From: Saccoglossus kowalevskii
Taxonomy: Eukaryota > Hemichordata > Enteropneusta > Harrimaniidae
Reading direction: 5' to 3'
DNA: 64,000 nucleotides
Assembly: GCF_000003605.2 (NCBI RefSeq)
Contig: NW_003141314.1
Location: 256,453-320,452 of the forward strand
Below the pieces are notes generated by a model. The model searched no databases and was not told where the DNA came from. It worked only from the letters and a program-made list of their open reading frames with translations. Positions 24,701-49,378 of the stretch are shown here, in pieces. Position numbers and translations under genes: made by a program. Numbering within the stretch: the stretch's first letter is position 1; the number at the start of each line of letters is the position of its first letter.

Positions 24701-27700
24701 ATCAACAATGACAAGAAAGATTCGCTAAATCAACATTTCACTATTACGTCATTTTACCACAATTTGCTAAAATTGCATGTGGCTTTTTCAACATGTTTTA
24801 CAGTATACTTGTACAACCTCTATGATAGATTTTACTGTCAACTTGATCAGTCATCAGACTCTCACAAAAGTCATGTAAGTCTTTTTTTTTACAACCAATA
24901 AAAAATTTTATATTTTTTTTAGTGTTCAGCTACATTATCCACTATGACAACCCCAAACAGGAAATCTGAGCCACAGTCCCTCTATAGAGAGACTGTGTCT
25001 GAGCACTCACCTCCTATGCACCAACTCTATTTTAGTTTGAGCTGAAATGTCAACTGATAACAGTATGCAATCTTATTCAAATTAATATAATTTGCATATT
25101 AATCAATCTCAAAAAAAGCAGTGACACAGCTTGTGATTTGATAACCAAATTAAACAGACAAAACAAAAGCTAATTATAAATCATTAGAAAGCAACTACCT
25201 ATATTATTTTAAGATGGATATTTGAAATAGCTCAGTAACACAGCAACATTATGCAGCTCAGCCAGTCTATAGTCGTACCCCATAAATCAGTGATCTTGTT
25301 TTGACAGTGTTTAGCACCAGATCTATAATTCACAGTTGAAGTCACGTTCCTGCTCTTAAGAACCATCCCTTTGTCAGCTAAACAGTTTACTCCAAATAGT
25401 GTACATCCAGATTTATATATATTTTAACAAATATACAGTATCTGCACAACTTCCGCATTTCAAAATGGAATTCATCTCGAATGCATTTTGATAAACTACA
25501 CTAGAAAACATTCTATATGCAAACTAGATAAGCCCATATAAGGAAGTGCCATCCCAAGATGATGAGAAAACAGTATGTCTGTGTCATGGGAGGTGACTGT
25601 CCCTATTTTACTTGAGTCAATAACATTTGATGTTGAATAATCAACAAGAAACACTGGATAGTATGAAACATACTTGAACAAAGCTGTAGTATGATAAGTA
25701 ATAATATTTGTCTGCACAGTGTGGGATATCATGCAGTCTAAATATCCTGCACAACAGAGTCGACTAACAATTACACAGACTTGATGCTGATGACAAGAAT
25801 GACATATGTAAAAGATTTGTTTACATAATCACATAATCAAAACTGAATTTGAAAATCAGACATATATTGTGTTTGAGGATAGAAGTTCAAGGTCACATAA
25901 TATTACAATTTGTGGGATAGCTAAAATACAGAAATTCACAAGTTTTAAAATCAGCCCTAAAACGTACCTCAAGTCTCATATGAATAAATGTAACCTGCTC
26001 TGTATTATAACAGACATAATATAAAGGATTCTCACCCAAACATGCATTTCATGATAGTAACTTAAAACACTTACTTAGAAGCCTTGCGTATAAAATTTAG
26101 CTCAGGAATAAGGTGATTCTCAACTCAACAGATAGGAAGTTGGAATGAAAGCTTGTTGTGTGTTGCAACAAATATTGACTAGCCACAGGCCACTAAGTCT
26201 ATTAATACTAAACAACCGTGACAGAGGAGATTGGAATGAACTAACCCAGTGATGTCACACTGCGCTGACCAATCAAGCAAGAGGAAAACAGTCACATGGT
26301 TTCAGAGAAAGGTCATGTGGTCCCATTTCAATCATGATGTGATGTATTTTTTTTTTTAATCAGGTGGATGACAAGTTGATTTCTTATTACAAATTCCACA
26401 TGTGTTTCGGATCGTTTTTCCATGGAAAAAGTATAACTGATTCACAGACTGTCAGCAACACAGGTTTCCGACATGATAATATATTATTATGCAGGAAATT
26501 TTTTTTCATTGAGAAATTTAATTTTATTGTTTTCAAAACCTTTTTTTTTGGTAATTATTACCTATTTAGAAATTATCAATTAATAAGTGAAAAAAATAAT
26601 GAAGGGTACTATTTATGATATATATATATATATATATACATTTTTGTTAAAATCATTATCAGTGTCAATCAAATTTGTCCTACCAAATTGCATTAAAAAT
26701 CAAAAAATCTTACAGGGAAGACAACCCAGAATACTAACAGTAAAAACCTGTTTTCATTAACATACATTTACACTGACTGTCTACATGGGGCAGGGTATCA
26801 GACTACCACTTCCGGCAGCTTGGAATTGGGACAAATTCCAAATACCAGTGGAGATGACAGGACTTTATAATCCGACCAAATTAAATCTGGTTTAACATAC
26901 ACAAGACTTCCTCTGAGATAATTAAGAAAGTTAATTACCAAGCTAATCTCATGGCTGAGCTAACAAACACTGGTGGTGTTCTCTTTGTAAGTTTTCCTCT
27001 CATGAATATTAGACAAATTGTCCTTGAACTGAAAGACAGTCTTGAACTGTATTTAGTTCAGTGAATAATAAAATTTCTGGTTCATCATCTTGTATATTTT
27101 TTTTTTTTTTATATATTTGTCTTTTATTTTGGAGAAGATGATTTTTCCATTGGCTACAGTTCTCAATCAAAATCTTGGCGCAAAAAATGGAATGCGGATT
27201 TGTTTTTCGAAAACTGACTGTAATTTGTAACTAAGTAGTATAAATACTGACTGAGGAAATAACAATTGCTTGAACACTTGTTTTTATAAACATTTCTGTT
27301 TTGAAGGATGTTTTTATTGCTATACATAGCAGCAGTGAGTGGCTACTTATTTGGATTTGTGATAAAATTCTATGTACTAAGTTATTTACTCCATTCACTT
27401 CTATTGGATCAAATACAGTATAACTTACTACACAGAGATGTTTACCCAGTAAAAGTTGTATGCGTAAATAAGTTAATACATGTACAATGTATTTTAAGAT
27501 ATACAAATAACCCAAATTAAATTGACAACAGCATCATTGTGAATTGTTGCCATAACATGCACGAGATTGGTCAATATCAATTAGATTAGAATAAACCACA
27601 GTGATAGAGAGACTGTGAATAAACTTATATTTAAGAACAATATATGTATTGTTTGATGAACTAATCAAAATGAAGTATTTGAATAATTCAATTAGAAACT

Positions 27701-30700
27701 ACATTTTATGTTTAGTAGAGAAAATGAAAACAAAAAATTATCTCTGATTTTTGAAGCAGAAACAGGAACAGGAACAGGAAATGAAACTCTCGATATACAT
27801 TTTTAAAATTAGATTCGTAATGAACCTCCATCACCTTGCAGAGAGCAATTTTTTTCACAGATAATTAATGACAACCCTCTGCATCGAATCATGCGAGACC
27901 ACACCACAAAACATGCAAGAAATGCAAAGTTCCCTTCCATGTGGTTAAAAAAATATGATTGGGGGAAACTTTAGAGGGAATCTGAATCAAATGTTGGCGG
28001 AAATAAATAGTAGTGGTGACAGGATGAAAAGTATTCAGTCAAAGACATAAGATAAGAAGGTAGTAGTTTGTTGTAACCTCATATTCACTGGGGTTGGAAA
28101 AATCTAGAACATCCGGTGTAAATCAGTCTCCTGTGACGACAAATTCTGAGAATGTATGAAAGAGCATTCTTGCAATTTCTAGCAAGCAGTAGTTGCTATG
28201 GCAACATAGAAAATTCTGAGAAAGCGAAGGATACCCAAAAATTGACATGTGGCTATGGTTAAATTAGTATGATTGACTAAAAAATTTGATGAAGTGAAGA
28301 AGTTTGTGTTTCAGATGAAAAGGTTGTGGAGCAGAGGTCATCTTCAATTTGTCTCTGATTACCAATTTTAAATTATTAATGATAAATGAACATCAATAAA
28401 TCGGGTCAATATTTAGCAATTTTTGTTGCATTTCAAAGATAAATTGGCCTTACACTGGAGTAATTGTGAAACTTATTAGCACGACAACTGTGTTGAGTTG
28501 GGAATTACTGATTTTATATATATCTTAATTTTTAAAAGATTTTTTTTTATCCCTCAACTCATGACCGTAAATTTTCTTTGTTTAAATCTTTAAAATCTAC
28601 AATAAAAAAATCTAACGAATGAACATGAAGATGGAATTAACTTTATACATAAGCTAAGGATATTGAGAAGTACTTTTACTTTGTTTTTACAGTATTTGTC
28701 AACAAAATATTCACTTACTTTGGAGAGGTATTTTCTTCCGGTGCTGATGGAGGGAACTTAAACACTTCCCCATCACTGATTCTCCTCATTTCTGGCAATT
28801 TTTCATCTTCATAATGTGAACCGCTGTCGCTGTCTGAGTCGCTAGACATAGGTTGGACTAGAGTCACAAGCTCAGCACGATGCACCTGTAGCAGCAGAGG
28901 GAAATGATGTCAATTTATTCTGATTTGTCGATTGAAATAAAGAAAATAATCCACTCACTACACATGCTAAGAAAAAGAAAAAATATATGTAAAATATATA
29001 CAGTTTGTATTTGAGTTTATTTAATTGATTTCAATTAAATAATTTTCTTCTTTTTTCTTATATTAGTAATTTCCATGTTGTTATATACTTAGTTTATGTA
29101 GACTTTTATTTTTGTCAATTATTTACCCACATTCACTTTTTTTAAAATGGTCTCTGAAATAATTAAAATCTCGAATTGATAAACTCTAACAACACATGCA
29201 GGAAGAATCAAAATGAAACTCAAAATATTTACTTTCTGTCATAGCACCCTCATGGAAAGTAATGTTTGAAATAAACACCGAGGGCGCTCTACAAAGTCAT
29301 TTGAGAAATTAATTGGGGCTAGATATTTTTTCACCAAATACTGTCTTTGCACAAACTGTGTAAGGGCGATGAGAGTGGGTGGATTGGTTGGTGTCAGAGA
29401 TGCAAGGTAGGTTGGGAATGATAGGAATGGCAGTGACTGGAGTTTAAGATGAAAACTAAAAATAACAAAATTAAAACACTTCTCAAAACAAAGTACACTA
29501 TTAATATAAATGTTAAAACTAGATTGGACAAATTAATGAGACTACGGTAATAATGTATGAAGGGGAAGTGAGTAATTGCAACAACAACTGAGAAAACAAA
29601 TATACTGTAAAAAGTATGATTTTCATTTTCAATTTTTTGTGAATTTCATGATAGTTACTATGACAACACTGTCAATATCCCAATGAGCTACAAAATTATG
29701 CTAGTTTCCTTAACTGATTTCTTTGTCTGGCATGAAAACAAAACGATTTACAGTATATGTGTCTTTGCTACAGTCCTACTGGTTATTCACACACAGAGGT
29801 AAACGTCTAGTCATGCAACACACCTCAAAGATTAGCAGCCAGGATGAGGGTTTAACAAGGGATGCAGAGAGTGTTAAAACAGCACCACATACACCAGTTT
29901 TGACAATTCAGAAGCTTTGAGTTCACTCTAAGTAACCCCCCCCCCCCCCCATGGAATGTCTCTCCAAATAGATAAGTTTCGGGTTCCCTGGTAATGTGAA
30001 AAATAAGGGGAGGGGGGGTGAAGCCACATAGATTCACTTCCAGTCAGCGGAAATATGTAGTTTAAAGCGGTTATTTCAGTCATGAGAACGTTAATAATGT
30101 GGCAACCATGGAAGGCACTCACCAACAGAAAACTAATATTATCAAAAGCGAATTCAAATATTGATGGTTGATGACAATTTGGTCTGAACTGAGTTGGAGA
30201 ATAATTCCAACTTGCCTAAGGAGGTTCATGAATGTCACAGTCACAGTTAGACTACTTAAAGATTCTGATAGATATTTTACTAAAATGTGACTATGATAAA
30301 ACCAGTGTTTGGTTTCTATAAGTGATTTTTTTGTGTGAAGTGTTTACTACTATACAGTGATGACAACAAAAAGGTCAGAAATTGCAAAATCACACAATAA
30401 ATAGTTGACTGGGGTAAATATTGAATTCTGGTGTAAGCAGCAGAAGGAGAATTTTGCATACAGATTCCTCAAAATAGTATGGTGCTAAACTTCCAGAGTG
30501 CAACTTTAACTTTAGGTGAAAATTAATTCTTCAAATGCTAAAGTAAACTGTCCATAATTTTTTTTTAAAAATGTGATCAAAACTTGGGCCAATAAAAAAA
30601 TTATGTCAATTTGGTGTTCCAAAAATAACAAAAAAAATTATAAGATATACAAATTTACGAAAAATCATTGGCAGGAAAAAAATTACAGCATCTCGAAGAA

Positions 30701-33700
30701 TTAATGAGTAAACAAATGAATTGGTGACTAATGAAATGGTGGACTATTATAGCATGGAGGTCAAATTATAGCAAGCCAGGAGGAAAGTGGAGAAATGGAA
30801 CATGGCATTAACCTTATTAGGGGTGGTAACCACCTGCAGGGGTGATGGAAGTGTCTGTGCAAAGGCAGCTTTCTGGTACGTTTCACTGGATTTCCTGGGT
30901 AATGAATCCCGGTCCAGATTAGGTGACCAACTACTTACTGGGCTCTTCTGTTTCTGCAGGTCTCCACTTCTGGGTTTCTGCTGCGGCAGTGTTGTAGCTT
31001 TGTCCTGCGCAGGAACCATGGGGTGTATTGCAAGCATTGGTTTTGGTGTGACAGGCTCAGTTTTCAGTGATTGCTGAGAACCTCTAGAGGCATACAGCTG
31101 ATAAATGTCCTTGGTCGACACCGTAGGAACTCTGGGTACCCTACCATACATTGGCAGTGAGGCAGTCTTATCAAGACTGTTGCTACTCTGGTGCCTGTGA
31201 TGCTGTTGGGCAGCAAAACCCAAAATAGAGCTTTGCGACTGATGTGGAGATTTCTGTTTACTCCCTGCTAATGATCCCGGTGGCGATCCACCGCTGCTCG
31301 GCCTATCCCTCTGTGATGATAATGAATTTGTTGAATCTCTATGTGATGCAAGACTTGCGAGTGACCCCTGTCGTTTGATCTCGTTTGAAGAATAGGCATT
31401 CGGCGGCATGGAACTAGGACGCAGTACTTCTGAGTTGGCTCTTTGCATCATGGGTACAGAGTTTTCAACAGAGCCACGTCGGAAGGACGATGTGCTGTAG
31501 CTTTTCTTTGGTGGTATGGGTTGCTCTGACATACCATGTATCATATTAACTGGTCGATTCCTGTCTGAGTAACTTGGCAGTTTACATGAACTGGCTAATG
31601 ATGATGTGCTTTCTGCAGATTCACTTTTTCCAGTCTTTTGACTATAGAAAAGAAACAAGGCTTCTTTCACTTTTCTACGTTCTTCAGGATCCGACGGTTG
31701 CCTTCGTTTCATATGACTGGTGGGATCTGAATGTTTATGTCTCTGGTCTCCTGTGGCAATCTTCTGATACTGATCTGAATCAGACTTGGTATACCGATGA
31801 TCAGGTTTCTCCATTTTAGGATCGGACCCTCTATGTCGTCTTTTGGGATCTGACAGATTACGTTCCTTCTTAGGATCAGATAATCTTTGACGATTTCTGT
31901 ATTCTTCTTTGTACGGATCAGAATTACGATGTTGTCTTTCATGATTTGAAGTATCTATTTCAAGAGACTTGTGAAACATCTTCTCAGGATCCGAATGCTT
32001 CTTTGGATCAGACTTCCTCTTGGGATCTGATCGCCTTCTTGGATCTGACAATCGACGCTTTTCTTTAGGTCTGTTTTGGCCAGGGTTCTCCTCAATATCA
32101 CTCAGTGGCTTAACATCATCTTGTTGAACACCTGGAAAAACTCTGCTTGGAGAAGTTGGATCATATGCATATGATATGGGCCGAGCAGGATTTGAGTCAT
32201 CTGCTTTCACGTGGTCATACCACTTATTAACCTCAGCTGAAGCCGATCTCGCTGGCATGGTAGCACTTTTGGGGCTGTTCCGATCAAATTTGCCAAAACC
32301 TACATCAGCATTTGGAGACAGTTTATCTTGTACATTTGGAGGTGATTTTCCAGAATGCTTGTTGAAAAACTCGCTTCTTCTAACATTATTTTTGTTACTG
32401 ATTTCAGGGTTTTTGGCTTCTTTATTGAAGTCTTCCCTAGTCTTGGCTTTTGATGACAAATCTTTGACCTTTGCGAATCCTTCATGGGTCTGGCGATGTT
32501 CTTTCTGCAGCTGCGACATAATAGAATGAGAGTCAGCATCTTTTCCTTCATTTTTCAAGTTCTGACGCTTTAAATGTTCTTGTTTCTCTCTTTCTTTCTT
32601 CTCCTTTTGAAGCTCAATGGGTTCTCCACGCTTGTACTTATCGCTGAATGGTGTCTGACTGTTTCTTTGCATTTTTGACATAAATTGTTCATTATTTTTC
32701 TCAGTCTCAAGACTTTCTGGATTAAAAATGTCATAACTTGAAGAATGCGTATGGTAATTTCTCCTGAAAGGGTTCTCTGATTCAATATCAAAGATAGAAG
32801 GCCGACCTGGTGATCCTTTTGATGGCTGCTCAATAAGTTTTGTAAACGGTGAAGACTTGCGTAAAGGGGGCGATTTTAATTTGATGTCTTCTTCTTCTTT
32901 ATTAGTATCAGCCTCAACTTTCAACTCTACAAATGCCATTTTGTCACTGGATTGTTTCCGTGGGTTTGCCATTTTGTTTTCTGGAACTAAGTCTGGAGGG
33001 TATTTTTTATCATTACTAAGATCTTCAAATCGTTTTACTGTTTCCTCAGTTGGACTTATAGCATGGCGTTTGGACATTTTAGTTCCCATTCCAGGTGTAA
33101 CCTGAAAATCTCCAGGGCTCTTCCAAGTTCTAGCAGTTGACACAGGAGTTTTATCTAGATGCCATCTGTCTTCACCTGGCTTTCTCTCATGTGGACCAGT
33201 ACCAGACATTTTCTCCACAGGAGGCCCTTCATGTGTACCATTGATTGTTGCAACTTCCCTCTCACTTGGGGAATGCAAATCATAAACAAGTCTATTTTCA
33301 GTTGGATGATACTCCCTACTGGGATTAGGAATGGAATTAACTTTATGTAATGCTTCTGGACTTTGACATTTGCCAGATAACCTTTTGACCTCCTCACTAA
33401 CAGAAGAATTAGGGAGTGAATGTGGTTGGACGCTGTAGCCTTGTTCAGTAAGATTTTGTTCCAAATAGGATGCATATTGATTTAGACTTGTGTCATGTTG
33501 ACTACCAGTACTCTTTATAGAATTATTCATTGATTCAGGTGACCAGAATCTCTCCGGTGATTTGTCCAGATTACTAGGCGTGCTGTGTGAGTTATTCACC
33601 ATTTCTGCTTTCAAATTCTGTTTCTCAAATGGAATGTCTCGTGTGGGTGGTGAAGGCACATCGTATTTTGCAGTATAGTCATAAGGCTTAGTGTATTTAG

Positions 33701-35677
33701 CATCTCCATGTTCTAGTTTCTCAGCAAGGAGTGGTTCGTCCATCGCAACATGGTAGACAGTTGCAGTATGCAACTCAAATTTTGAGCTGGGCGGGTATTT
33801 GTGCTGTTTGCCATTAATCACATAACTACCGGACGCAGTGAGATGAACTGGATGGTACAATGTCTTTGGGGAACTGTCAGTGTAAGGCTTAGGCTCTTTC
33901 TCTAAAAAAGCCTGAGAAGCAAATGTTTTTGTATCAGAATCGTCATCTAATGGCAGTGTTTTGATATGTGCCTTATAACCTTGATGTTCCGGCCACTCAT
34001 GTTGCGGAGAAGTGTCATTGTTCCAAGTGTTTGATCTCAGATGTACGGTGTCTGCCTGTGGAGCTATGACAACCTTACTCTGAACTATTGCTGGCCATGT
34101 AGGTGACTTATGGCATTTGTGGACAGCCTTCATACTGGAATCACGCTGCGGTGGGATTGGTGGGGACACTTCTTTTTTTGGTGGCAATGGTGGTGGCCTC
34201 TCATTTGTATAACCTTGATTAACTGGGGATGAGTTCTGATCAGGATATTTGAAGATAGGTTCATCAGGTTTGGGATGTCTAATATCAGGTGATATCATAC
34301 ACGTCAGTTCTGTCCTTTTCAACTTAGGCTGGTTCTCACTTTCAACTCTGTCACCAGACTGTTCCCACATTACTTTTTGTGGGGACTGAACTCTCCCTTT
34401 AATATCAGATGGTCCTTTCACTCCCACATTAAGATCTTTGGATACTTCTGCCCTGTGATGTCTCTGCGCTTGCTTTCCCGAGTCCACAGACTGGGCATGC
34501 ACAAGCTGCACTGGAATAGCACGCGTTTCTATAACACTGGCAAATTTATGATTATTTCCAAGTTTCACTTTGTCCGGGATTCTACTATCAGAATCCCGCT
34601 TAACATCATTAAATTGTTTACCTGGCAAATGTTTACTATAGTAATACTCATCCCTTTGCACTTTCTCAAAATCCCTATTGCTTTCATGCACTTCTCTGCT
34701 CCCAGCATCCTTTGCTGGAAGTCGATATGAATTTGTTTTCCCACTCATATCATTGTACTCAATTGCCTTTTGTTTCACAAATCCAGGCTGCCTATAAGAG
34801 GAAGTAGACCCTCCTTTAAAGCTGTTCAAACTGGACATTGATCGGGATGTATTACTGCGCATCGAGGAACGAAATGAATCTCTCCCATTCCAGTGACCAG
34901 ATTGGGGTTGATCTTCCACCGTGTGAAATCCTCTTCTGTACTCTTCATGTTGCTTCTGTTTAATTTTAAATTCAGGGTCTTGTTGATGGCCCTCATGACT
35001 ATGGTGCCATGACTTTGGTCTGTAAGATGGTGACCTATGGATGAGAAGTAAAAATAGAGAATAACGATTCAACATATCAAAGATACACATTCTATATAAA
35101 GATTGTTCCTCCTTTGTTCAACATTTTTATTACCAGAAAAGATTCCTAGAATATCTGACTGAGAGAAATGACATTTTGACACTGAATACACTGCAACCAG
35201 TGTCTGAACTGAACAACAAAGGAACTGGTAGGTTAATAGGTTTTTTTTTATAGCATGTACATAGGAGAAGATGTTTGGAAAAGTTTCTGGTTTAACATAG
35301 GTTGACGCATTACACATAATTTTTTCCCTCCCACCAAAATGTTGTTACATCAATTTTGCTCAATTTTATGTAATTTTCTAATTTTTTTTTAAATTTTGAA
35401 ACTAATGGACAATTTGTCTATGGTTACAGGTCCTGATTGAAATTTTTTGGGGAAAAATTGTGGTTAGATCTGAGACAAATTCAAGTTGAGTTCTTACCGC
35501 TCTGTTTTCTTCAGCCTCATTTTGACGCCATATCCACTAGGCCTGCTACTAAAGTCTGATTGGTGATGGCTAGTTAACATACCACTGGATTCCTTCTCTT
35601 TCTCCTGTAACTGTTTAACTCTTTTGTAAAATTCAGATGATTTGGGACTTGTAATAGTATCAAAATCTGGTGGTCCC
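18484..35677 (-). CDS. SHROOM: Shroom family actin-binding protein, gene span (supported exons)
   Basis: Shroom proteins bind F-actin through ASD1 and Rho kinase through the C-terminal ASD2, recruiting ROCK to apical junctions to drive myosin II contraction and apical constriction. Eight exons on the minus strand (35498-35677, 30834-35034, 28719-28885, 21596-21979, 20240-21193, 19665-19794, 19212-19484, 18484-18762) join in phase without a stop. The C-terminal ~290 residues form a full ASD2 coiled coil with the family signature NLLLSLSGRLARAEN. The rest is low-complexity, Ser/Pro/Lys-rich, as usual for Shroom, with most of it in one huge exon. With the candidate first exon at 56328-56500 the protein would be 2,246 residues, within the family range. 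No PDZ domain was found, so this may be a PDZ-less form or the PDZ exons may lie upstream or unrecognised. Confidence 0.93.
19212..19484 (-). CDS. SHROOM: Shroom exon (ASD2 core with SGRLARAEN signature)
   Basis: A 273-nt phase 0-0 exon between TTCACAG and AAG|GTGAGA. It encodes EELLDSIKKKLDGLRAEKEE, then ELGEIV...CTPAEFGKFELFV, ELDSIINLLLSLSGRLARAE, and NVYNSLDED. The SLSGRLAR block is the most conserved part of ASD2 and identifies the family. Confidence 0.97.
19665..19794 (-). CDS. SHROOM: Shroom exon (start of ASD2)
   Basis: A 130-nt exon between GTGCAG and AAG|GTAGCT. It encodes EDLSLLLSYLKLSAPKAQLL, NQALLSEDNGEVPADSEELN, KKK. 'SAPKA.LLN' is a recognisable family motif at the ASD2 entry. 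There is no ATG, so simple ORF searches miss it. It completes an Arg codon with the previous exon and ends at phase 0. Confidence 0.92.
20240..21193 (-). CDS. SHROOM: Shroom exon (Ser/Pro-rich linker leading into ASD2)
   Basis: A 954-nt exon between TTTTTTTAG and CCAAG|GTAACT. The first two thirds are rich in S-P/T-P dipeptides (for example SPENTVSPGRRTSPG, KSVSPKSH, STSPKYPPTSPLGKKP), candidate proline-directed kinase sites. The last third changes to charged sequence: PEELKTEELATDIISKSNDK, then TTSDYMAGLFPKG and KRKRSV. The latter blocks ('TE.LA..I', 'T..D.M.GLFP', 'KRK') occur just ahead of ASD2 in SHROOM3 as recalled. Confidence 0.93.
21596..21979 (-). CDS. SHROOM: Shroom exon with EVH1-ligand motif
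   Basis: A 384-nt exon between TTTTACAG and CCT|GTAAGT. It encodes WDSVRDSERPQPEISPKHLW, a basic KSSKHRKKTKEK run, LPTPPSSPSEDELEIVNI, EFPPPPPLELLMNG and DNILDKVEKEM. EFPPPPPLE (about 21747-21774) fits the Ena/VASP EVH1 ligand consensus (acidic-FPPPP-x-acidic). A putative EVH1-binding site has been described for mouse Shroom. Confidence 0.92.
24965..25003. mobile_element. Micro-palindromic insertion, copy 1, flanked by TCTGAG direct repeats
   Basis: A 27-bp palindromic core at 24971-24997 starts CCACAGTCCC and ends GACTGTG, with a TCTATAGAGA centre. The hexamer TCTGAG stands directly on both sides (24965-24970 and 24998-25003), as a target-site duplication would. Same family as the copies at 27590 and 49336. 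Confidence 0.7.
26618..26639. repeat. (TA)n microsatellite
   Basis: About eleven TA dinucleotides inside a Shroom intron. Confidence 0.9.
27590..27623. mobile_element. Micro-palindromic insertion, copy 2 (shortened), flanked by AATAAA direct repeats
   Basis: A 22-bp core at 27596-27617 (CCACAGT, ATAGAGA, GACTGTG) is flanked on both sides by AATAAA (27590-27595 and 27618-27623). The core lacks part of the left arm compared with copy 1. Confidence 0.65.
28719..28885 (-). CDS. SHROOM: Shroom exon (acidic Ser/Asp segment)
   Basis: A 167-nt exon between TGCTACAG and CCAAA|GTAAGT, phase 0 in and two bases out. It encodes VHRAELVTLVQPMSSDSDSD, SGSHYEDEKLPEMRRISDGE, VFKFPPSAPEENTSP. The acidic Ser/Asp run looks like a casein-kinase-2 type region. 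There is no long ATG-initiated frame here; the exon is recognised from splice sites, phase and composition. Confidence 0.88.
28886..30833 (-). other. SHROOM: Shroom intron (1.9 kb)
   Basis: Intron between the giant exon and the acidic exon. It contains a C run at 29938-29950 and AT-rich sequence; short open frames at 29723-30125 on both strands have no support. Confidence 0.7.
30834..35034 (-). CDS. SHROOM: Shroom giant central exon
   Basis: About 4.2 kb of uninterrupted coding sequence, residues ~118-1518 of the model. The acceptor is ATCCATAG|G at 35035. Two donors are possible at the far end: CAG|GTGGTT (exon end 30834) and AAG|GTTAAT (exon end 30813); both keep phase 0 and differ by 7 residues (VVTTPNK). 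In order it holds: a His/Arg-rich start; NERPPPLPPKKEVSPPIPP at about 34145-34204 (SH3-type proline ligands, PPLPPK); a lysine/glutamate-rich stretch near 32400-32640; an array of ten SDP motifs at about 31688-32066; then RRKVKEALFLFYSQKTGKSE and a long Ser/Gln-rich tail. One very large central exon is usual for Shroom genes and should include the actin-binding ASD1, which I cannot delimit; the SDP array and following block are the best guess. No membrane segments or signal peptide. Confidence 0.93.
31688..32066 (-). repeat. SHROOM: SDP-motif array within Shroom
   Basis: Within about 126 residues the tripeptide SDP occurs ten times, mostly followed by basic residues (SDPRRR, SDPKRK, SDPKKH, SDPEK, SDPYK, SDPKKE, SDPKRR, SDPKM, SDPTS, SDPEER). 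Spacing is irregular: the first four lie 6-7 residues apart, later ones farther. This looks like decayed short-unit duplication kept for a charged function such as actin or phosphate-dependent binding. Confidence 0.8.
35498..35677 (-). CDS. SHROOM: Shroom 5'-most supported exon
   Basis: A 180-nt exon between TTATTTGCAG and GAGCG|GTAAGA. It encodes GPPDFDTITSPKSSEFYKRV, KQLQEKEKESSGMLTSHHQS, DFSSRPSGYGVKMRLKKTE. The in-phase acceptor needs an upstream exon ending with two codon bases. A short charged helix (KRVKQLQEKEKE) is the only structure visible. Confidence 0.85.
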
Positions 35678-38051
35678 CTGCAAATAATGGAGAAAGAAAA
35701 CAGACTTAAATGTGGCATAATTCCTGATTGATTTCTGACAATTGTCTGGTGTGTGGGTGGACCCTATTGGTGTAGTCAGCAAAGAATTATGTGAAGGTAC
35801 AGGCAGTAAAGAACTTAATGCAATTTAAGACTTGGTGATTGGTTCCAATAATATTCACAATAATGTATATGCTCTATTATTAGCGCATCCTCTTACAGGA
35901 GCGCAGGATACGGGATCATTAAAATACAACTATAGACACTATATATATAATGTACGCGTAACTAATAGAGTAAATACAGTATACATATCTGAGTTTATGC
36001 AAAACACTGAATCAAATATACCAATTTATTCTATTAGAAGCTCACCTCTAAGAGAAGCACATATCAACAAAAAATCACATTGGATGTAAACTCAATCATT
36101 AAAATATTACTTATTTGGACCATAGTAACATAGAAACTGTAATATACATAAATGAATGCTCTACTAATAGAACAAATACAATACTGCTATACATTAACAT
36201 GAATATTACTCATTTGGATAGCCTTTAAAATACACCTCCATAATTTGAATATATTTAATTAATCAAAACTGTTGATTAAGAACTGGAAGCACTGAAAAAT
36301 TAAATCCATTTGTCCAAAATCTATCAACAAATTACGGGTACCGGTAAATAATTTACAAAATGCCGGCATGCAAAATTACGGCATCAAAAAAGTTACCGGT
36401 AAAATCAGATTTATGTGTCACAAGACAAATATAACAATGAAGTCAGTGATAAAACATGAAGAATTGTGTATTGTATAACCTTTTACTTCTAATAGACAAT
36501 TATACTAACTACTGATAACGATTCACGATTACCTTTAATCAAAACAATTAAATCATCAGTTACGTATAAATGATAAAAATACCAGGTGGTAGCAAAGTGT
36601 CACAAAAAGGACAAGCCCATCGATAAATATATTGCAGCACTATGCGTTTCATTGATCTTCTGAAGAGAGATTGCCGACATTATTGCCACTACAGTGCAAC
36701 TCTACAGGTATACATGTATGAAGGTATGAGTGAGAGAATGTTATTTGATGCATACTTGCACAGTGTGAGGTACAAGACCAAAAAAGTGAATAAAATACAG
36801 AACCTGTCTGATTAACAAAGTCAATGATAATTTACTTATTTCGATGTCCATACACAGACTTTTTTTAGAGGAAGAGAAAGTTTGCTTCTCATAGCAACAA
36901 TGAATTTGCAGAGATAACATTTTAATACACACTGAAGACAGGAACAGCACATTGGCCGATGTCATTCTTTAAACTATGAATACATCTACAACAAGGCAGA
37001 AATTATATTTTCTATTTATTTATTAATGACGGGTAGCTGGTCATGTGATATCAAACCACAATGTTCCAGTATGCTAGCATGGGCACACTCCTAATCATTA
37101 ATTCCTCAAATTACTTTACTAACACTATTAATCCACCAGCACCTAACAGCAGGAATTAAAAAAAAAATGCAAGGTTGAAATACATTGTCTGATAACAGAA
37201 AAGTGATAAATTCCGCATTCCAGCATTTGACAATTTCCCTTTCATAATATTGCAACACAAAAGAATAGAACGGATGTTACACAAAATGATTGCGACACTT
37301 CACAAAAGAAAAAAAAAACATTCCAACTAGTGTGGATGATTTCAACCATAATGAAAATAACGGAACAGGCTTTTAAAACAAAAATATATTGAAGTTGATT
37401 CCTGCACACAAAAAAAGCCGCCAAGCCCAATTACTTAGTTATTGCCACAGACAAAATTAAAGTGGTTGATAACAGGTGGTCATTCTCATTTAATTTGATT
37501 TGGATTTGTTTTCTATCTATTTTAATTGAAAGAATGTATTATGTGATCATGACATTGAACCAGGTTTGTTCCACAAAAGATGAACACAACTTAGTTCATT
37601 ATAATATTATTGTTATTTTATCATTGTAACTAGGAAATTTACAGGTATTTCTATGTTTAGCATGCACTGATCTTTGGATTAATCTTCATTCGCACATATA
37701 TACAGTATATATATATATATAAACAACATCATCTTAATGTTGGTAATATAAAAATATCACAGTATTTGATTAATTTCCAAAATATACTCAATACTGTGAG
37801 TGATGCCTGTTTGTTTTTTTAGCAAATGCCAACAGAGCTAGTTTTGTTTTATGAATACTTAAATACAAAAACTATAACTGTGATTGAAAAAGAAATTAAT
37901 TTAACATAATGCATAATAGTATCAAATTACTCACATATATTATTGTTATTTTTTAACCTTAACCTGAATATTTACAAAATAAAATTTTACAAAAAATTAC
38001 ATCACAGAGTTAAATTTACACAAAAACATTTTTGCTCTTTTTTGCAAAAAT

Positions 38052-38619
38052 TTATATAATATAATAAATAAATAAATAAATAAATATATAGGATTTTGCC
38101 AATGATAGCAAACAGTAGTAGAATTTATAGCATTAGAAGTGTCAATATCAACTAAATCTTTTAATTAATTTGTTGACAATATTTGTTATATAATTAATAT
38201 GATACAGCCATAGCACAGACAATATTTGAATTTAGTGTAAACAAATAATTTTATGCATGTTGACATCAAATGTCACACACACGACGCGACGACTATGATG
38301 CTACAAAGCAGACATGCACAAATGAATTATTATATTATATAATATAATAAATAAATAAATAAATAAATAAATAAATATATAGGATTTTGCCAATGATAGC
38401 AAACAGTAGTAGAATTTATAGCATTAGAAGTGTCAATATCAACTAAATCTTTTAATTAATTTGTTGACAATATTTGTTATATAATTAATATGATACAGCC
38501 ATAGCACAGACAATATTTGAATTTAGTGTAAACAAATAATTTTATGCATGTTGACATCAAATGTCACACACACGACGCGACGACTATGATGCTACAAAGC
38601 AGACATGCACAAATGAATT
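38052..38619. repeat. 291-bp tandem duplication, two copies identical by eye
   Basis: The 238 bp at 38091-38328 and at 38382-38619 appear identical base for base, each preceded by a TAAA-type microsatellite of different length. Period is 291 bp. Identity in non-coding DNA points to a very recent duplication or to an assembly/haplotype artefact. Confidence 0.93.
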
Positions 38620-40033: not shown

Positions 40034-40083
40034 NNNNNNNNNNNNNNNNNNNNNNNNNNNNNNNNNNNNNNNNNNNNNNNNNN
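40034..40083. other. Assembly gap (50 N)
   Basis: A 50-base run of N, probably a scaffold join of arbitrary size. The open frame crossing it is not a gene. Confidence 0.99.
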
Positions 40084-42829
40084 AAACAGCCAAATTGTTA
40101 AATTTTCAGAGATGACATTTTATGGGATTACAGTATAATTTTTTTTTGGAGATGACAATGATAAAAAAAGATGAAATTGCGGTGTAATTGAGATAATCTA
40201 TTTTGAAGCATTTGATGGGAGTATCTGCTGACAGGGATGTTTATATTTTTACTTTCATACATTAGGTGTACATTACCACTAAAAACTAAATGAACCAATA
40301 CTGGTATCATTAACTGCTAATGCATGTGTAATTAACTCATTAAGTATATCTGGAAGTAACACTCAAAAAGAACCAATGAAAGTAACCAGAACCAATGGAA
40401 ACTCAAAAGTACAGCCAATATTACTATGGAGGCCAGATGTGTTTCCTGTAGGTGGAAAAAACATTTTATCACCTTCCTGTCTCTTAGATCATTTCTGACA
40501 AAAACATTTACACAACCGTGACTAAAAACTATCAGCCCCTCTCATTCAGCTTTTGGAACATTCTCATCGCTTTGCTTGGATGGAGATTGGGATATTTCAT
40601 TCTGTATAATCAGGGGTCTGTAGGCTCATATGATGTAGAAAATACAATTTTTGAAGACCATTTAGGTGGGATTGAAGGCAAGAAGTGGCAACCTAATCTT
40701 AGGACATGACATTTATGCTTGCATTGGGAAGCATTTATGTGATTATGACTAGGTAGCTGGTGATACAAAGCAACTGACATATTTACACTTAAACCATTGC
40801 CATGTCAAAACAGTTTTCCCGCTCAAACAACAACCTCATAATTCTGAAAATTTGTAAATTTTTTTATTTGCATATATGTAAATTTTGTAATGTCAAATGA
40901 ATTTAAAACAAAACATGAAAGAAATTGAAAAATGTGAAGGTGTTTGTGTGTAATCATTGCAAATACCCAAAGAAACAGACAAACAGACAGCCTACTTGTA
41001 ACACCTATCCAAATTTAGACTATATTTGATGATCTTCAAAGCTTTTCAATGCTTCTTAGGAGGAACATTAATTTGAACAACTCTTCCTTTTAGACTGATT
41101 CACAGTGCAGGTGTTTAGAGCTGTCATTCTACATCACTCACTGAACATATCCATTCTCTGCAAACTGAATTAACTTGACAGCGAGAAAAAAACTCAATTC
41201 TATGCAAATTCTGAACAAATATTATCGTTTCACATTCTCAATCGCAATAAGTGTCATCGAGGACATGACGTCAATTATATTGAAATTCCAATAAATTGTC
41301 ACCACTTTCCAGAAATTTGATCATTTCAGATTGTTCATGGTAAAAACATGTTTTTAAAGACACTGAGATTCCACCGAGGGGAAACAGTGAAATTGTCAGT
41401 CCTAGTGATTTGCAGTGTTCGTCACGCAAAACTAAAAGCAATTTGCAGTTTTAGAATATTCAACTATAACAATCTAGAAGTTTTTTTCAAACCTGTTGCT
41501 AAGACAAGAAATTGACAACTATTTCTAAATATTGTTAGTTTCCACAGGAAATCAGGTGAAAAACAGATTACAAAATATCAATCGTTTACGGATATTGTCA
41601 ATATGTTAACACATTAATTAAGCTTTGACATGTACGTCAATCAAAGACGCATATTGCAAGGGAATACCTGCCATCTCACCACCTTTACAAAAAAAAAAAT
41701 AATAATAAAAAACGCTATCTGTCTTTTGTTATTTTGATTACAACTGTTGACTTCTGGGTCAAATGCAAGAAACCTTTGAATTAGCTTGTCCGTGTATATT
41801 AAAGATAGGTATACAAGCATGCTCCAATGAACAAATTCAACCAGCCAGCCATTTTTAACAATGACCGGTCAAAGAATACATAAAAGATTCAAGGATACAA
41901 GTGGCTTGCTCTAGTAAATCAGTCATGCGCATAAATACAGCACTGACCTAAAACCCTAACAGAATTTTGGCATGTCAGTTAAAAATACTGGCAACATTAC
42001 GGCAGATGGCTATCAGATTTTACCTGCAATGTATTTGCCACTGACGCAGTGTTCTTTTTTTTTAATAACAATAAATTTTCAAAATAAATTCTGATGCATT
42101 AAAAAAATGGCAGTTCAATAGAACAGAGAACTGCTCAACAAATTCAACTGGTAAGCGTGTTTATGTTCATGGCAAAACAACAACATCAACGTACGTGCCG
42201 GTAATAAGATAAAATAGAACTGGTGAACAACTGACTGTATGAAAATTTCAAATACTATACTGGGCAGAAAATAATATTAAAATACCATTCGTAGAATTTT
42301 TTAAAACCCAACCGTCCGATTTACTAGAACGTACTGCACATTATGACTCATGATTCGATAGTGACAGTAAAAAGGTGGGGAAAGTCTTGATGACACACCT
42401 CACTACAGTCTAACTGTTAGTATCATTTCAACACATGCAATGAATCCAGAAAAAATATAAATCTACAGAGATAAATTAAATAATAAAAAAAATCTACAGG
42501 TATTTTTTTTACCTCGAATACTGTACCTTACCTTGTTTTGAATGACCAACGTCATTGTACCAATGACTGCCATTGAATCGTAGACGACAATAGCACATAC
42601 AACACGTAAGTATATTAGGGTGTCAGCGGTAACATGTTTTGATGGTTAATTTAACAAAAGGGTAATTTAAATAAAATCACTAACATACCATTATTAAGCA
42701 GCTTAAAATCCCTTTCTCGAAATGTTAACCCAGCATTAAACACGGTGAAAATGAGTTAAATTTGAAGCGAAACCAAAATCTGCTCATGTGTCCGTGGGCT
42801 CCATATTCATGCCATGTCTACTGTGTTGT

Positions 42830-42900
42830 GTACATACGTATATAGTCAAAATGGCGGCTACAATAAAAGCAGCCAATCGCAGGTGTGCTTACAAAAAGCA
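42830..42900. promoter_or_regulatory. Possible internal promoter (YY1 + CCAAT)
   Basis: AAAATGGCGGC (a full YY1-type site) lies 19 bp from AGCCAATCGC (CCAAT box) in a small island of higher GC inside the presumed Shroom intron. This pairing is typical of TATA-less promoters. No convincing first exon was found beside it: the plus-strand frame from this ATG (MAATIKAANRR...) has a possible CGCAG|GTGTGC donor but no known domain. Confidence 0.3.
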
Positions 42901-43925
42901 CTTAGAGCCCAGCATAAACAACCAATCATTTATTTTGATAGGGGTAAACACCGCGAGGGAGACATCAAAGAAAGCCACCCTCAAGGGAAGGATTCTAAAG
43001 AATTTTTTGAGTCATTTCGGTCTCTCTTATGTCGAACCGCAAAATATGTGGTTTTAAAAAAGGGGGGGAAACACGGTTGACAAGGTAACGAAGATGGAAT
43101 GCACCTAGTTACTCAGCCACTACTGGAGCAAGCAATATTTCATGGCCGAACAAAGAATGGCAAGGCTGTTTACTACCAACAAAATAAATAGAAAATATTA
43201 CTTAATTTTTTTGACGATGACATGATTTAGATTCTTAATATAAGGTGATTAATGAGTTTGCAGAAAGAAAAAAATTAATTGACAAAAGAAAACTTCATTG
43301 ACATTTTTCATGTTTTGTATGCTATTATATATACGGTATGTACAGTGTATAAAAGCTATAGCTAGAATGAGTAGACATTCTCTGCACTGGCTTGCTGCTT
43401 CAAAGTCAAGTTCAGGGAATTTCTTTTAGGACAAGCAATAAAATCCACTGTTCCATAAAATGTGTGTTTTAGAGCCACTGCGACAAATGCCTTTTCAGAA
43501 TAGTTGCTATCGGAAAGAATTTTCAAAAAAAATAATTTTATTTTATTTTGTCAAGCTAGAACAAGACATGAATAACTGGCAGACAATGCAAGCGCATACC
43601 TTCCCTTAAGCAAGGCCAGCACCTGGTATTTTTGAAGCTTGTAGACCCCAAGTGACCTTAATGCTTTTTGTGTGGAGAAACAATTAAATGATTGGACAAA
43701 TTTGCAGTCACATTGTTTAGACCTAAAAAATGTCAAGACTGCTGTGACAAGCAACTACTGCTGTCAGAGGATATGTCAGATATTGTATAAGTAGGAGCAG
43801 GAAAATATTATTTTACAAGTTCATCAGAATAAATGCCACAACAGAAACTAAACACCTGATTATAAATCAGTCAAGATCAGCATAAAGAAAAAACACTAAC
43901 ACAGTATTACGCAGAAAAATTAACT

Positions 43926-44102
43926 GAGGGGAAGCAAGGTCATTCCTCTGCACTAGGGGAAGCAAGGTCATTCCTCTGCACTAGGGGAAGCAAGGTCATT
44001 CCTCTGCACTAGGGGAAGCAAGGTCATCCCTCTGCACTAGGGGAAGCAAGGTCATCCCTCTGCACTAGGGGAAGCAAGGTCATCCCTCTGCACTAGGGGA
44101 AG
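43926..44102. repeat. 28-bp tandem satellite, about 6 copies
   Basis: Head-to-tail copies of a 28-bp unit (GGGGAAGCAAGGTCATTCCT plus CTGCACTA). The left copies have CATTCC and the right ones CATCCC, so the array grew in two blocks. Confidence 0.95.
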
Positions 44103-44646
44103 TGGAATATTTCCCTAAATAACAAACAAATCTTTTCACACTTGTTTTTGTAAGAATGTATTTGAAACAAGAAAATAGCCATTGACAAACAGCGACACAA
44201 GGCTGAAGTAGTTCAATGACGCACACACATCATTTTGACAACTTCCCTTTTTTGGAAACACAGTAATTAAGTTTTACTCCTATATCAACTTTTTTTTTTA
44301 CAAGAAAGTCTTTACAAAGTAGTCACCTTGTTGCGGTTGATGATTAAAAGAAATAATCACATCAATTGGATTCTCCATGGTTTTGCCCATTCATTTGCCT
44401 TACCTGTAAGTACACCATGACATGCATAAAGTTGAGTAAAAAATTTAGGCCCTATCCAAGAAAAAAAAAATCCAAAACACGGGACACCCAATCCTATTAT
44501 ATGTTGTCTGCTTTTATCAACTTCCAATGGAAAAACACAAACATGCTTTCAAAAGGAAATGTAGACAAAGTTGTGGGTTTTTCTGATTGGTCGCAATGAA
44601 AGCTAACAAGGCACTCAAAACGTTTAGAGTCTTGCAATGTACTGAC

Positions 44647-44759
44647 CTTAAACTACTATTGTGTAGTAACACAGGACAACTTTCGTCGCAGTGAGCCACC
44701 ATGTAAATGACGTTAGATTTCCCAAACTGAATATCCCCATGACAGAGAATATCCGCCAT
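44647..44759 (-). CDS. Candidate alternative first exon of Shroom (44.7 kb)
   Basis: From ATG 44759 (CAAATGGCGG, a YY1-like start like the DCTD one) the minus strand encodes 37 residues (MADILCHGDIQFGKSNVIYM, VAHCDESCPVLLHNSSL) and reaches AAG|GTCAGT with two bases left over. This is exactly the phase that the 35677 acceptor requires. No homologue is recognised and the Cys-rich composition is unlike the rest of Shroom. It could be chance. Confidence 0.27.
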
Positions 44760-47700
44760 TTGAGGTGTAGAAATAGGAAAGATTAAAGCTTTGATGGTAT
44801 TAAGCAGAGCTCAATCTGATCCATGTAGATGTAGTCATGTTCAGAAAAAGAACTTGATATTGGCCCTTAGCAGACACAGCCGGCCAATGTAATATTATTA
44901 ACTGGAATGCTACAACACCCTCATGCCCTTGTAAAATACTGAATACCATCTGTTTCTTTGTAATCAAAATACTAGCCTATCTTTCTCTAAAACGGGAAAA
45001 CGAAACCACTGTCAGAAGGAGACTTGTTCTCTTGATTTCAAAAACACTTTCTCCAGTTTCATCCCAGCTACAAGTAACCATGGTTAACTATTTTTCAAAC
45101 AAAACACAAGGCATTACAGCCCCTCTTTCACAGTAACATCACCTGTGTTTCGGGCCTGACATGTCAACATGAGCATGGAGCCCAGTTCACTTGCACGTCT
45201 GGTAATCGAACACTCGATGCAAACGCTCCACTAATTAGAGTAAAGCTCTAAACACTGACTGATGTTGTGGCACTAACCTGAGAGTATAGTTACAGGTTCA
45301 TGACTGCCGAAAAATGCAGTGAGGGGAAACAGAATCTGCAGATCAGATGTAACACTCTAGTATAGAGGGCTCCAAATGTGATTAAAACACAATCCAAGCA
45401 AGATGAAGTGATAATGATCTAAGTCAATAATAACACCATGAATAGTTAATGTAGCCAGTCATCAGGCAAGTAATACTAATAATCAGTGTTGAAACAGTCC
45501 AGTGAAGAGTGCAAGTCAAAGTGGGTCAAGTACATGCATGGCTTGTCAAACCATCATAGCATACCAGAAGCTGGGAGGAGGTATCACCTCCTGGGGGGTT
45601 GCAAACAGTCCTAATGGTTTGAGAATTTTAAACTGTTTTAATTGCCTCCTTGATTTGACAGGATTTCTTCACACTATATGCAACAATAAAAATGCCTTGG
45701 GAACAATTTCTTGAGGCTGCTTTCCTTTAACTAAGAAACTGAGCAAAAATATATCGCTTTGGAATACATGTACTATCAGATAGCACTTATCTCCCCTATT
45801 TGATGAATGGAATGACCCAAATAATTACACCAAATATGTCACACTAACACCATGGATGTGATGTTTTGATTTTTAGACTAAATCAATCAGCCTCCCAGAT
45901 TCAATGAACACCAAAGTCACCTGTCACATGATCCATCTTCCAACAGAGGGCAGGTCAAAGTTCAACAAAGTATATTTATATACCAGTATGTGTTTTTAGA
46001 TGGCTGAGTTAGTGTAATTTTATAATGGCTAAGTGTTGATTGACTAATTACAGATCACTTGCAGAGTAGATATGGTGTCAACTGATGGCGTATTAAGATA
46101 TAGATACAAGAACACTAGGATGGCACCCAGATGTACAGTGTGAGAACTTGAGAAATACCCAGCAATAGTTTAAAACGCAATTCAGATGTTCTATTCTACC
46201 AGGTCATTGTCAATTGATCAAAGAAGTCACAGAAAAATGTCAATATTTTGCACGAAGATTTTGGTGGGAAAAATTGTTGCATGGTCCTGTGAGTCCAATT
46301 TATAAATCATTATGTGGTAATTACAGACCATGTTGTTGGACAGAGCAGTCAGCACTTGTGTGTACACAGGACATTAGATATTAACTAATAACTTTGTTTT
46401 GGGTAAAATTCCTTGGTGGGGATTGTGTTTATGCTACCAGTTTCCTGCTGACATGAAACAAGTTAAATAGAGAGTTATTTTGATCAATATTTTTCTTTTG
46501 GGGTCATGAACCAATTTAACACATTTTAAAGATTCTTAGCAAATTATGTATAAACTATAGAGTGACGATGTAGATAAATGTCTTATTTTGAAGAGAAGGG
46601 GGAGGGGGTTTTGCTAAGTTAAAACTGTTTTTTAACTTCATTAACAATTGCATGCATTTTTTGGTAGAAAGTTGTGAATTTGTTAACCCAAGAAACTACC
46701 AGGATGTGACCTGTTAGAGGGTCACACATACTAGTAATGGACATCTATTTAAATATTTCCCACAAAAAACAACATTAGGTGTAACCAGTCTCAATTTGAA
46801 CCTATAGTCTTTCTAAAGTTTTAACATTTATAGAGCATAGCAATATGGGAGAGGGGAGAGTGGAAAGTGGGGGGCCTAAAATCACTGTTCCTATGGAAAC
46901 AAAGTTGTTTACAACCCCCAACTCCCCATATTATTATTAATTTATACCAACCGGTAGTCATCTTAATATGTTTGTGATAAACATGCAAAAAGAGATAAGA
47001 TTAAGTTGTAAACTATTCAACATAAAAAATTGTGGTATTGTTGGGGTAACATTCCACACACCCTACCCTCCTAACATACACATACCAACGTGAAATAATC
47101 CCTGTTTAGTCCTATAAACAATTTAGTATCCCTTAGAGAAGGAGCCGCATTACATCAATGGTCTCAGCTGAGAAAGAATGTTATTATGTTTTGTTTTGTC
47201 CTGTGTCAACCACCGAACTGTCCAATTGGTATTTCCGCTGGAGGGATTTAATCTCAATCTAAATGTTTGCAGCGGAAAGTGCCAGAGACATGTAAATGAG
47301 TATGGTTGTATAAATTAGAATAATTACTCGGAGAGAGAGGGTATAAACAGGTATACCTAAATTATTGTTGAGAAGGAGGAGAGAACCAATAATCTGAAAA
47401 AGTTGGCCACCATCCAATGCAAGTTTCAGAACAAACACTGACCGAATGAGAAAAGCGGTGTTTAAGAGAGTGCAATACACGATATATTCTGAAGATGGCT
47501 AATTGAAACACTCAATTGCCAGACGCTTGTTTGCCCTTAGCACATGTAGTGGGGTGCGACAATGCTCATCGGGGTTTGAAGATGCGGTGGATGGGTTTCT
47601 ATCCGCCAAACATGCAGAGGAAGCAGTCAACCTGAAAGGTTATACTGTTTAAAAAAGATCAAGTCGCTGAGGAAACAATCACAATCCCAGGTCACATTAA

Positions 47701-49335
47701 TTGCCCCTGATTGCCTGCGGTGACAAAACAAGCGGAGATGACCATAGTGACAGAACAGTGGTCTAAGAAAACAAATAGTAACAAACAAAATTCTTCAGCC
47801 ATGCGATAGCAATTGTGTCTATTTTTATTCAGACCAAGAGAACAGTACACGACCGCTCCCAGTCGAGGAATTTCGCCTTTTCCTAGTTCAATATTTGCAC
47901 GCCGATTAACTTTAGGCTAGTTTTCGAATTGCTGAGGTGTACGCTTAGTCTTTGTACACGAAGTGAAGTCTCAACAAAGCACATGCTTAGTGAGAAAGTT
48001 ACAAAAGAAACTTGGCACGAAACACTGTCCAGGTGTAGAAACACAGACGGGTCATAAAAACAAAACTCTCAACGTTCACCGACAATGAATAGCGCAAATA
48101 TTTCCGAATGACTTCATCATGACAATTGTTCAAATAGTTGACCTGTTTCCAAAATTAATTCACCTCTGTACGGAATGACCATATTGGACCAAAATTAATG
48201 TTTTCGTTTTATCTCTTTCCTTTTTCAAAAAAGAAAGTCCAAATCTGATATTTGATTATCAAAGTATTCAATGAAAATGACGAAGGTTCAGCAGATTAAA
48301 GCAAAAGGGATTAGCAGTTAAATTTTGGACTAGGTAATTAAGACAGCAACCATAAATTAACATTTTTTTAATGGCAATATGATGAAATAAGGCTAGTCTT
48401 AAGGATGGCTAACATACTTTCAGAACACGAGTTTCTTGAAACTTCTCTATCATTATTATTTTTTGTGATATTTATCTGATGAAAAAACTTTCAAACTATT
48501 TTTTTTTTTTTTTTTTTATGAACCTTAATTGTACATATTACCGCACTCCTGATCTTCAATCCAAAATAGAAATCACAAAGTCACTGTTTTCAAGGAAACA
48601 ATGATTTTTAATCGCTTTTTGTTAATAATATGGAACATTTCACCCAGCAAAATGTCATGAATTTGTGGTACACATTTTCAAAATTTTAATAGCTAGCTTA
48701 CAGAATCTCAAGATAAACAACAATATATGCACTAGAAAACTTGGTGACTATGATGGTGTAAGATTAGTTGTAATGGTATTTGAGAACTATTTTTGGCTCA
48801 AGTAATCTGTTTGAACAATAAATAAATTACAGGAGGTAAAAACATTGACATTTTTTTTTTTTTCACCTGATGTCATGCGTGCATACTGTTGGTTTTTTCA
48901 AGGTAACCAAACTATAAAATCAAAAAATTTAATTAACTGCTTTTGGCTGAAGGGCTTGTTGGGTGGTGTTGCGATTCAAAATATTTTGTCGGCTTTCAAG
49001 CGCATATTCTATGGTTGTGCGGGTCCCTGAGAACCAAGGAGATGGCACCCTACCTTTAAATTACTTGAATGTAACATAACCACTCTTGGAAAAACAATGA
49101 GAGTTGTGCAGTAGAATCCCCCTTCCTCACACATACAAAAACACCAAAACAAAAAAAAAACATTTATACAAGAAGTACTGAAAAATGTGTTGTTTTAGTT
49201 TTTTTGCTAATTCAAGATGTACCTAATTCTGGCTTTAATGACATTTTGAGATCTTTATCTCACTACAATTTGCTCATCCATAAATTGAGCCGAGATTTGC
49301 TAAATCCACGATAACAATTTCTGGTCCCCTTCTCA

Positions 49336-49378
49336 GCCAAGCCACAGTCCCCCTATAGATAGAGGGACTGTGGCCAAG
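49336..49378. mobile_element. Micro-palindromic insertion, copy 3, flanked by GCCAAG direct repeats
   Basis: A 31-bp core at 49342-49372 begins CCACAGTCC and ends GGACTGTG, with a CTATAGATAG centre. GCCAAG stands on both sides (49336-49341 and 49373-49378). This is the longest and best-paired of the three copies. Confidence 0.72.

Follow-up and report, generated by a model that had tools for sequence, protein, structure and literature searches.

The question raised by a 64,000-nucleotide (nt) stretch of the genome of the hemichordate Saccoglossus kowalevskii (contig NW_003141314.1, positions 256,453 to 320,452; hereafter the window) is whether three short palindromes within it are mobile elements of extremely small size or the traces of larger transposons. 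Excision scars of cut-and-paste transposons usually amount to a few bases, which makes later recognition hard. The palindromes of the window are 21 to 30 base pairs (bp) long, and we hold it very probable that they are the repaired donor sites of departed DNA transposons of the P superfamily, and not ultra-short miniature inverted-repeat transposable elements (MITEs).

Three palindromes between 7-bp direct repeats

All three palindromes were found where a preliminary description of the sequence had placed them. Each starts with CACAGT, finishes with ACTGTG and has an exact 7-bp direct repeat on either side. The preliminary description had reported a common core, CCACAGT...GACTGTG, between exact hexamers. 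The shared termini are real and the hexamers are exact at all three sites, but the leading C is part of the flanking repeat and not of the core. Once this C is assigned to the flank, the two ends form inverted repeats around a 7-bp duplication; duplications of 6 bp were rejected, 7 bp fitting the three sites. The features are listed below (TSD, target-site duplication; scars parsed by eye, the first and third against the terminal inverted repeats, TIRs, of intact ends; no strand is assigned unless given).

24965-24971: TSD copy 1, TCTGAGC
24972-24997: excision scar, 26 bp
24998-25004: TSD copy 2, TCTGAGC
27590-27596: TSD copy 1, AATAAAC
27597-27617, minus strand: excision scar, 21 bp
27618-27624: TSD copy 2, AATAAAC
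49336-49342: TSD copy 1, GCCAAGC
49343-49372: excision scar, 30 bp
49373-49379: TSD copy 2, GCCAAGC

The first scar contains about 14 nt from each TIR tip, overlapping at AT, the right tip being a variant with T at position 8. The second, read on the minus strand, is composed of a 17-nt tip, CACAGTCTCTCTATCAC, and the last 6 nt of the other tip (ACTGTG), joined at AC. In the third, one tip of about 14 nt is followed by 1 nt and by 15 nt of the other tip (CACAGTCCCTCTATC). The TATAGA-type centre that the three sites had been thought to share dissolves into variable joins of two TIR tips with no single conserved sequence. The window scars appear to derive from the TATCAC/TATCCC families described below.

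Pairs of CACAGT and ACTGTG spanning at most 40 bp occur three times in the window, in each case with exact 7-bp repeats. In 200 shuffles of the window in two-base blocks, 17 such pairs were obtained altogether, none of them with a 7-bp repeat. When the gap was set at 0-30, 4 pairs were observed for 0.17 expected. The fourth pair (37758-37798, 41 bp) shows neither a direct repeat nor internal TIR sequence, and was for these reasons taken as a chance occurrence.

Probable scars and full-size elements across the genome

The genome searched comprises 572 Mb in 4,830 contigs (L numbers denote loci and C numbers contigs). The pattern CACAGTC-N(4-24)-GACTGTG, identical on both strands, gave 935 matches against 12 for the reversed pattern used as control, and the claim that such sites are not due to chance was borne out. 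This count excludes window site 2, the left tip of which is CACAGTG. Among viral contigs the tip matched 6 loci, from which no conclusion is drawn.

The preliminary description had proposed to look genome-wide for an excess of matching flanks. An excess was found in a non-random sample, the 27 distinct sites among the first 30 loci by contig order that matched the pattern with a leading C: the 7-bp repeat was exact at 20 of the 27 and had at most one mismatch at 24. Among 702 permuted flank pairs none was exact and 14 had one mismatch. In a second set of 30 loci, 7 ran on into TIR sequence and 1 was the broken end of a 318-bp element. The remaining 22 gave 11 exact repeats, 6 with one mismatch, 1 with two and 1 with five, a scoring biased toward matches because the best TGTG end within 60 bases was chosen; the script found no right end for the other 3 (L052, L056 and L076), where by eye the 7-mer recurs just past the tip or overlapping it. 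In this set L077 and L078 are a single site, and L049, L069 and L070, which share both flanks, and L057, which shares the left flank, are copies of a repeat.

These last four loci belong to another repeat family that carries a scar and has been copied along with it: the same 21-bp scar, in some copies point-changed, is present in 9 of 9 pattern-matched copies. The copy on C1612 retains a perfect TSD, TCAAAAC.

Longer elements with the same termini, which the preliminary description had suggested looking for, exist in the genome at 1.1-1.3 kb with TIRs of about 30 bp. Elements of 1,130-1,333 bp bounded by CACAGTCCCTCTATCCC-CGGTCTGGAAACG or near variants were retrieved as four facing pairs of ends, all four with exact 7-bp repeats. 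Facing ends on the same contig and less than 10 kb apart were paired by eye from the listed places of intact ends (n=6); five of the six pairs have exact 7-bp TSDs (C662, C1728, C2229, C3775 and C3898, the latter being L082), the exception being C1630. The full-size copies carry the duplication that had been attributed to insertion, and the suggestion that the short sites are remnants of a larger element is supported as regards the termini but not as regards the proposed 6 bp.

The TIRs are identical over 30-31 nt in L080, L082, C2229, C3775 and C1630, over 29 of 30 in C662 and over 27 of 30 in C1728; the full elements thus have TIRs of about 31 bp, as does Drosophila P. In L082 (1,329 bp) and L080 (1,321 bp) the TIRs are 31 bp long, with TATCAC replacing TATCCC. 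For type B a single facing pair was available (n=1), 1,135 bp long with the exact TSD TTGAAAC on both sides. The intact-end pattern CACNGTCNCTCNNNNNNCGGTYNNGAAACG, written CACNGTCNCTCNNNNNN-CGGTYNNGAAACG and taken from the first such ends, matched 121 ends against 0 for the control; intact ends with a different inner motif are those of L060, L063 and type B. Scars, at 935, are several-fold commoner than intact ends, for which the pattern gave 121 and type B a further 6, all three figures being exact-pattern counts and not full counts. Among longer copies, the right tip is broken at 16 in L054 (616 bp) and at 8 in L081 (486 bp), and the left tip at 17 in L071 (318 bp).

A genome search for the P-type RNase H domain, P-type families being those searched, gave 13 matches. 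The best (C1630:12646-13089) sits within a 7,942-bp element, C1630:10113-18054, whose inverted ends CACCGTCCCTCAACACC-CGGTTAAGAAACG are identical over 30 nt. In this element (L083, L037, L084, L085) three open stretches on one strand match, collinearly, PF21787 (97.4 bits, cut-off 24.6, E 1e-27), PF21788 (23.7 bits, just under the cut-off of 24.8, E 7e-5) and PF21789 (28.9 bits, cut-off 24, E 1e-6), and there is a weak match in PDB to the P transposase 6p5a (E 0.0048). In this copy the domain order predicts a P-type transposase, in which a GTP-binding insertion interrupts the RNase H core. At the other transposase places, L038-L048, no matching end pair was found within 3.2-3.4 kb (for L038 and L039, about 2 kb more on each side).

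A second gene on the opposite strand of the C1630 element consists of a 321-amino-acid open stretch without a Pfam match and a 116-amino-acid stretch with a C2H2 finger, which lies near the N terminus of the gene. In its N-terminal part the 116-amino-acid stretch is related to an open frame of a type-A element (L054/L079; BLASTP E 1e-8), a relation that ties the families together. No match to this N terminus was found among plasmids by tblastn, as expected for an animal gene. No convincing C2CH motif was seen in the C1630 element, the one match lying on the strand opposite the second gene. The type-A N-terminal peptide gave 18 matches; the four loci fetched are elements of 486-1,329 bp in which no transposase was seen and none was searched for.

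The 17-nt stop and the joins

Lengths of retained tips were read by aligning scar ends of types A, C and D to the 30-nt TIRs of intact ends, the samples being the first 100 places of each genome search. Among the matches listed, none of 151 ends in the first scar list, which come from 84 distinct sites and exclude 17 ends of type B, exceeds 17 nt. In the longer-scar list, with 83 distinct sites and 23 ends of type B excluded, 7 of 143 do: five stop at 18 and one at 19, which is within the range of chance, and one at 30. A 59-bp copy at C1346:213942-214001, in which one TIR is retained over 30 nt and the other over 17 at most, is an extreme internal deletion and not a scar.

Exact 17+17 scars are L009 and the second scar of L036; in the others the tips overlap at a few common letters or the join contains filler. 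Both the centre and the length vary across the 84 distinct sites, without the one shared internal sequence of a MITE family. One 21-bp join, in which the 3' end ...TATCAC lies on the GT of CACAGT, recurs at L051, L058, L073 and L074, each with its own exact TSD, and is identical to that of window site 2 on the minus strand. Pairing of an overhang by its 3' end with the interior of the opposite overhang would be expected to give this join. As a rule, the scars of types A, C and D have two TSDs round at most 17 nt of each tip, with joins of the microhomology and templated-insert kinds.

According to the account in PMC7776569, P transposase makes its 3' cut at the element end and its 5' cut 17 bp inside the TIR, producing 17-nt 3' extensions. 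Junctions left by excision of P in flies hold no more than 17 nt from either tip between the two TSDs, and include blunt, microhomology and templated-insert joins (PMC2895639, Table 1). By analogy, a transposon with TIRs of the form CACAGTC[C/A/T]CTC... followed by an inner CGGT... would insert and duplicate a 7-bp target, as seen in the full-size copies. On departure the transposase would cut one strand at the element ends and the other 17 nt inside, a stagger that we infer from where the scars stop and from the biochemistry of P elements, and each chromosome end would keep the outer 17 nt of the TIR as a 3' overhang. The overhangs would have the same sequence and so be non-complementary, and end joining would proceed bluntly, through short microhomology or with small insertions, part of them templated by the tips; this route would fit joining of the polymerase-theta type. 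The product would be palindromic, about 18-38 bp long and variable at its centre, composed of at most 17 nt of each tip between two TSDs, and would not itself be expected to move.

Type B departs from this layout. In its intact end, CACAGTCACTCTACTAGGA-CGGTTAGGAAGCG, 19 nt precede CGGT, which starts at position 20. The 45 type-B scar ends (collapsed from 58) stop at 17 (17 ends), 18 (2), 19 (19), 20 (6) and 22 (1), where at least 17 nt are kept by construction and the lengths are maximum readings; part of the pile-up at 19 can be assigned to either side of the join. Whole scars were read in 26 cases. Eleven of them are one identical 30-bp join that requires a left tip of at least 18 nt when the right gives its maximum (18+12 or 19+11). 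Five have CTAG joins that fit a 17-nt cut, six (24 and 28 bp) fit 17 or 19, and the other four contain fillers or altered letters. A 17-nt cut could also produce the eleven 30-bp joins, provided that the other tip had the variant sequence CACAGTCACTCTCCTAG; an intact type-B end with this variant has 0 matches in the genome, a weak negative since few intact type-B ends exist.

Scars stop at 17 where CGGT starts at 18 and seem to reach 18-19 where it starts at 20, which suggests that the inner cut is placed by the CGGT... motif and not at a fixed distance from the element end. We advance this tentatively, as somewhat less probable than its opposite, on one family and an ascertained sample. If true, the scars of this two-gene P-like lineage, with its 7-bp duplications, would amount to a natural assay of the cut site and would show the stagger changing with the layout of the TIRs in a single host. 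At C3951:8129-8622, seven type-B scar-like units, mostly 65 bp apart, form a tandem array of which a scar has become part.

Alternative explanations, known systems and neighbouring sequence

Several observations weigh against excision of P-superfamily elements as the origin of the palindromes. No complete type-A element that encodes a transposase of its own was found. The 7-mers flanking the C1630 element differ (AGTGGGT and GCAATAC), so that this copy may be rearranged or joined from two copies, and the six open frames scanned gave no Pfam match to THAP, a search that a short exon could escape. Three of the 27 sites in the first flank sample have 7-mers with 2-5 mismatches. All nine pattern-matched copies of the scar-bearing repeat family are filled, none being empty and none containing a whole element (exact flank letters were required), and no second copy of window site 1 was found among the 40 of 556 candidates scored. 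The comparison was made within one genome. The likeness of fillers to the tips, which in itself speaks for excision and joining (75 of 84 fillers of at least 6 nt contained a tip 5-mer, for a mean of 46 and a maximum of 59 in 1000 shuffles), is inflated by point-mutated tips scored as filler. Finally, P elements of flies give 8-bp TSDs whereas those of the scars are 7 bp.

Chance palindromes beside chance direct repeats, for which the small number of window sites speaks and nothing else, are already refuted by the shuffles and the genome counts, and their probability is practically nil. Insertion of mobile micro-elements as such, ultra-short MITEs of 20-40 bp with 7-bp duplications, would account for the many sites with exact flanks and a common terminal motif. 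It would leave unexplained that length and centre vary from site to site, that the tips end at 17 nt whereas the TIRs of full elements reach 30-31 nt, and that fillers and microhomology joins are present. P-type transposases, besides, need internal binding sites. The scars lack the internal sites described as bound by them (PMC7776569), and we regard micro-elements as very improbable. The undescribed class of mobile micro-element proposed in the preliminary description gives way to variable tip joins that usually stop at 17 nt, before CGGT....

Excision by a transposase from a different superfamily, such as hAT or Transib, with ends alike by chance, might be suspected since the commonest intact end, of the TATCCC type, was not found with its own transposase and the sole transposase copy, on C1630, is without matching flanks. 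Excision in other superfamilies leaves few bases, however; the only transposase between such TIRs has P-type domains, P-type families being what the genome search covered, and a retained 17-nt tip with TIRs of about 31 bp suits P. This origin is highly unlikely. Comparably doubtful is extreme internal deletion through interrupted gap repair, starting from the same 17-nt cut: the longer copies (L054, L071, L081, C1346) do resemble deletions, but the 18-38 bp class with its two-sided stop at 17 requires no gap synthesis.

On the reading that we hold very probable, the palindromes are a kind of lesion already known, repaired P-type donor sites, which are numerous in this genome, have a 7-bp duplication and perhaps show a stagger set by a motif. 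The junctions described for Drosophila melanogaster P (PMC2895639) have the same anatomy; they were laboratory-made from one construct with 8-bp TSDs, whereas those here are natural, number hundreds and have 7-bp TSDs and other TIRs. The TSD is 8 bp long in P and Pdre2 and 7 bp in Galileo, with which the elements here agree. Galileo, of the P superfamily in Drosophila, is described with a 7-bp TSD and a consensus target, GTANTAC, to which several TSDs here look similar by eye, and differs by its long Foldback-like TIRs (PMC4168063). As reported in PMC10983969, Pdre2/THAP9 of zebrafish is P-type outside insects, has TIRs beginning with CA and is excised by the THAP9 transposase; it differs in its 13-bp TIRs, distant subterminal repeats and 8-bp TSD, and when zfTHAP9 excised it in fly cells the flanking deletions were larger. 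In Anopheles gambiae, P elements are described together with related MITEs (PMC1562414), the likeness lying in non-autonomous P relatives in an animal genome and the difference in their being MITEs.

No genome-wide catalogue of P-element excision scars was found in the literature searched, which covered few subscription papers. Scars long enough to be found genome-wide record past excisions where no element remains, map the inner cut of the transposase and probably preserve hundreds of natural end-joining events from a defined overhang. Short palindromes with target-site duplications may, by the same token, be mistaken for micro-MITEs.

Elsewhere in the window, a stretch of about 48 bp (24760-24810) matches at least 39 further places in the genome (40 of 556 candidates scored). 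A tandem repeat with a 56-bp unit (GGGTTAAACCTTATCT...) occupies 14025-14464, next to a run of N at 14481-15397. On the minus strand, an open frame of 1,447 amino acids (30747-35090) matches nothing in Pfam at E 0.01 or in NCBIfam at E 0.1. Exons of Shroom lie on the same strand at 19167-19586 and 20236-21225, the second being a weak match below the cut-off; the first encodes the Shroom ASD2 domain (Pfam E 2.4e-29), and its PDB match is Shroom2.

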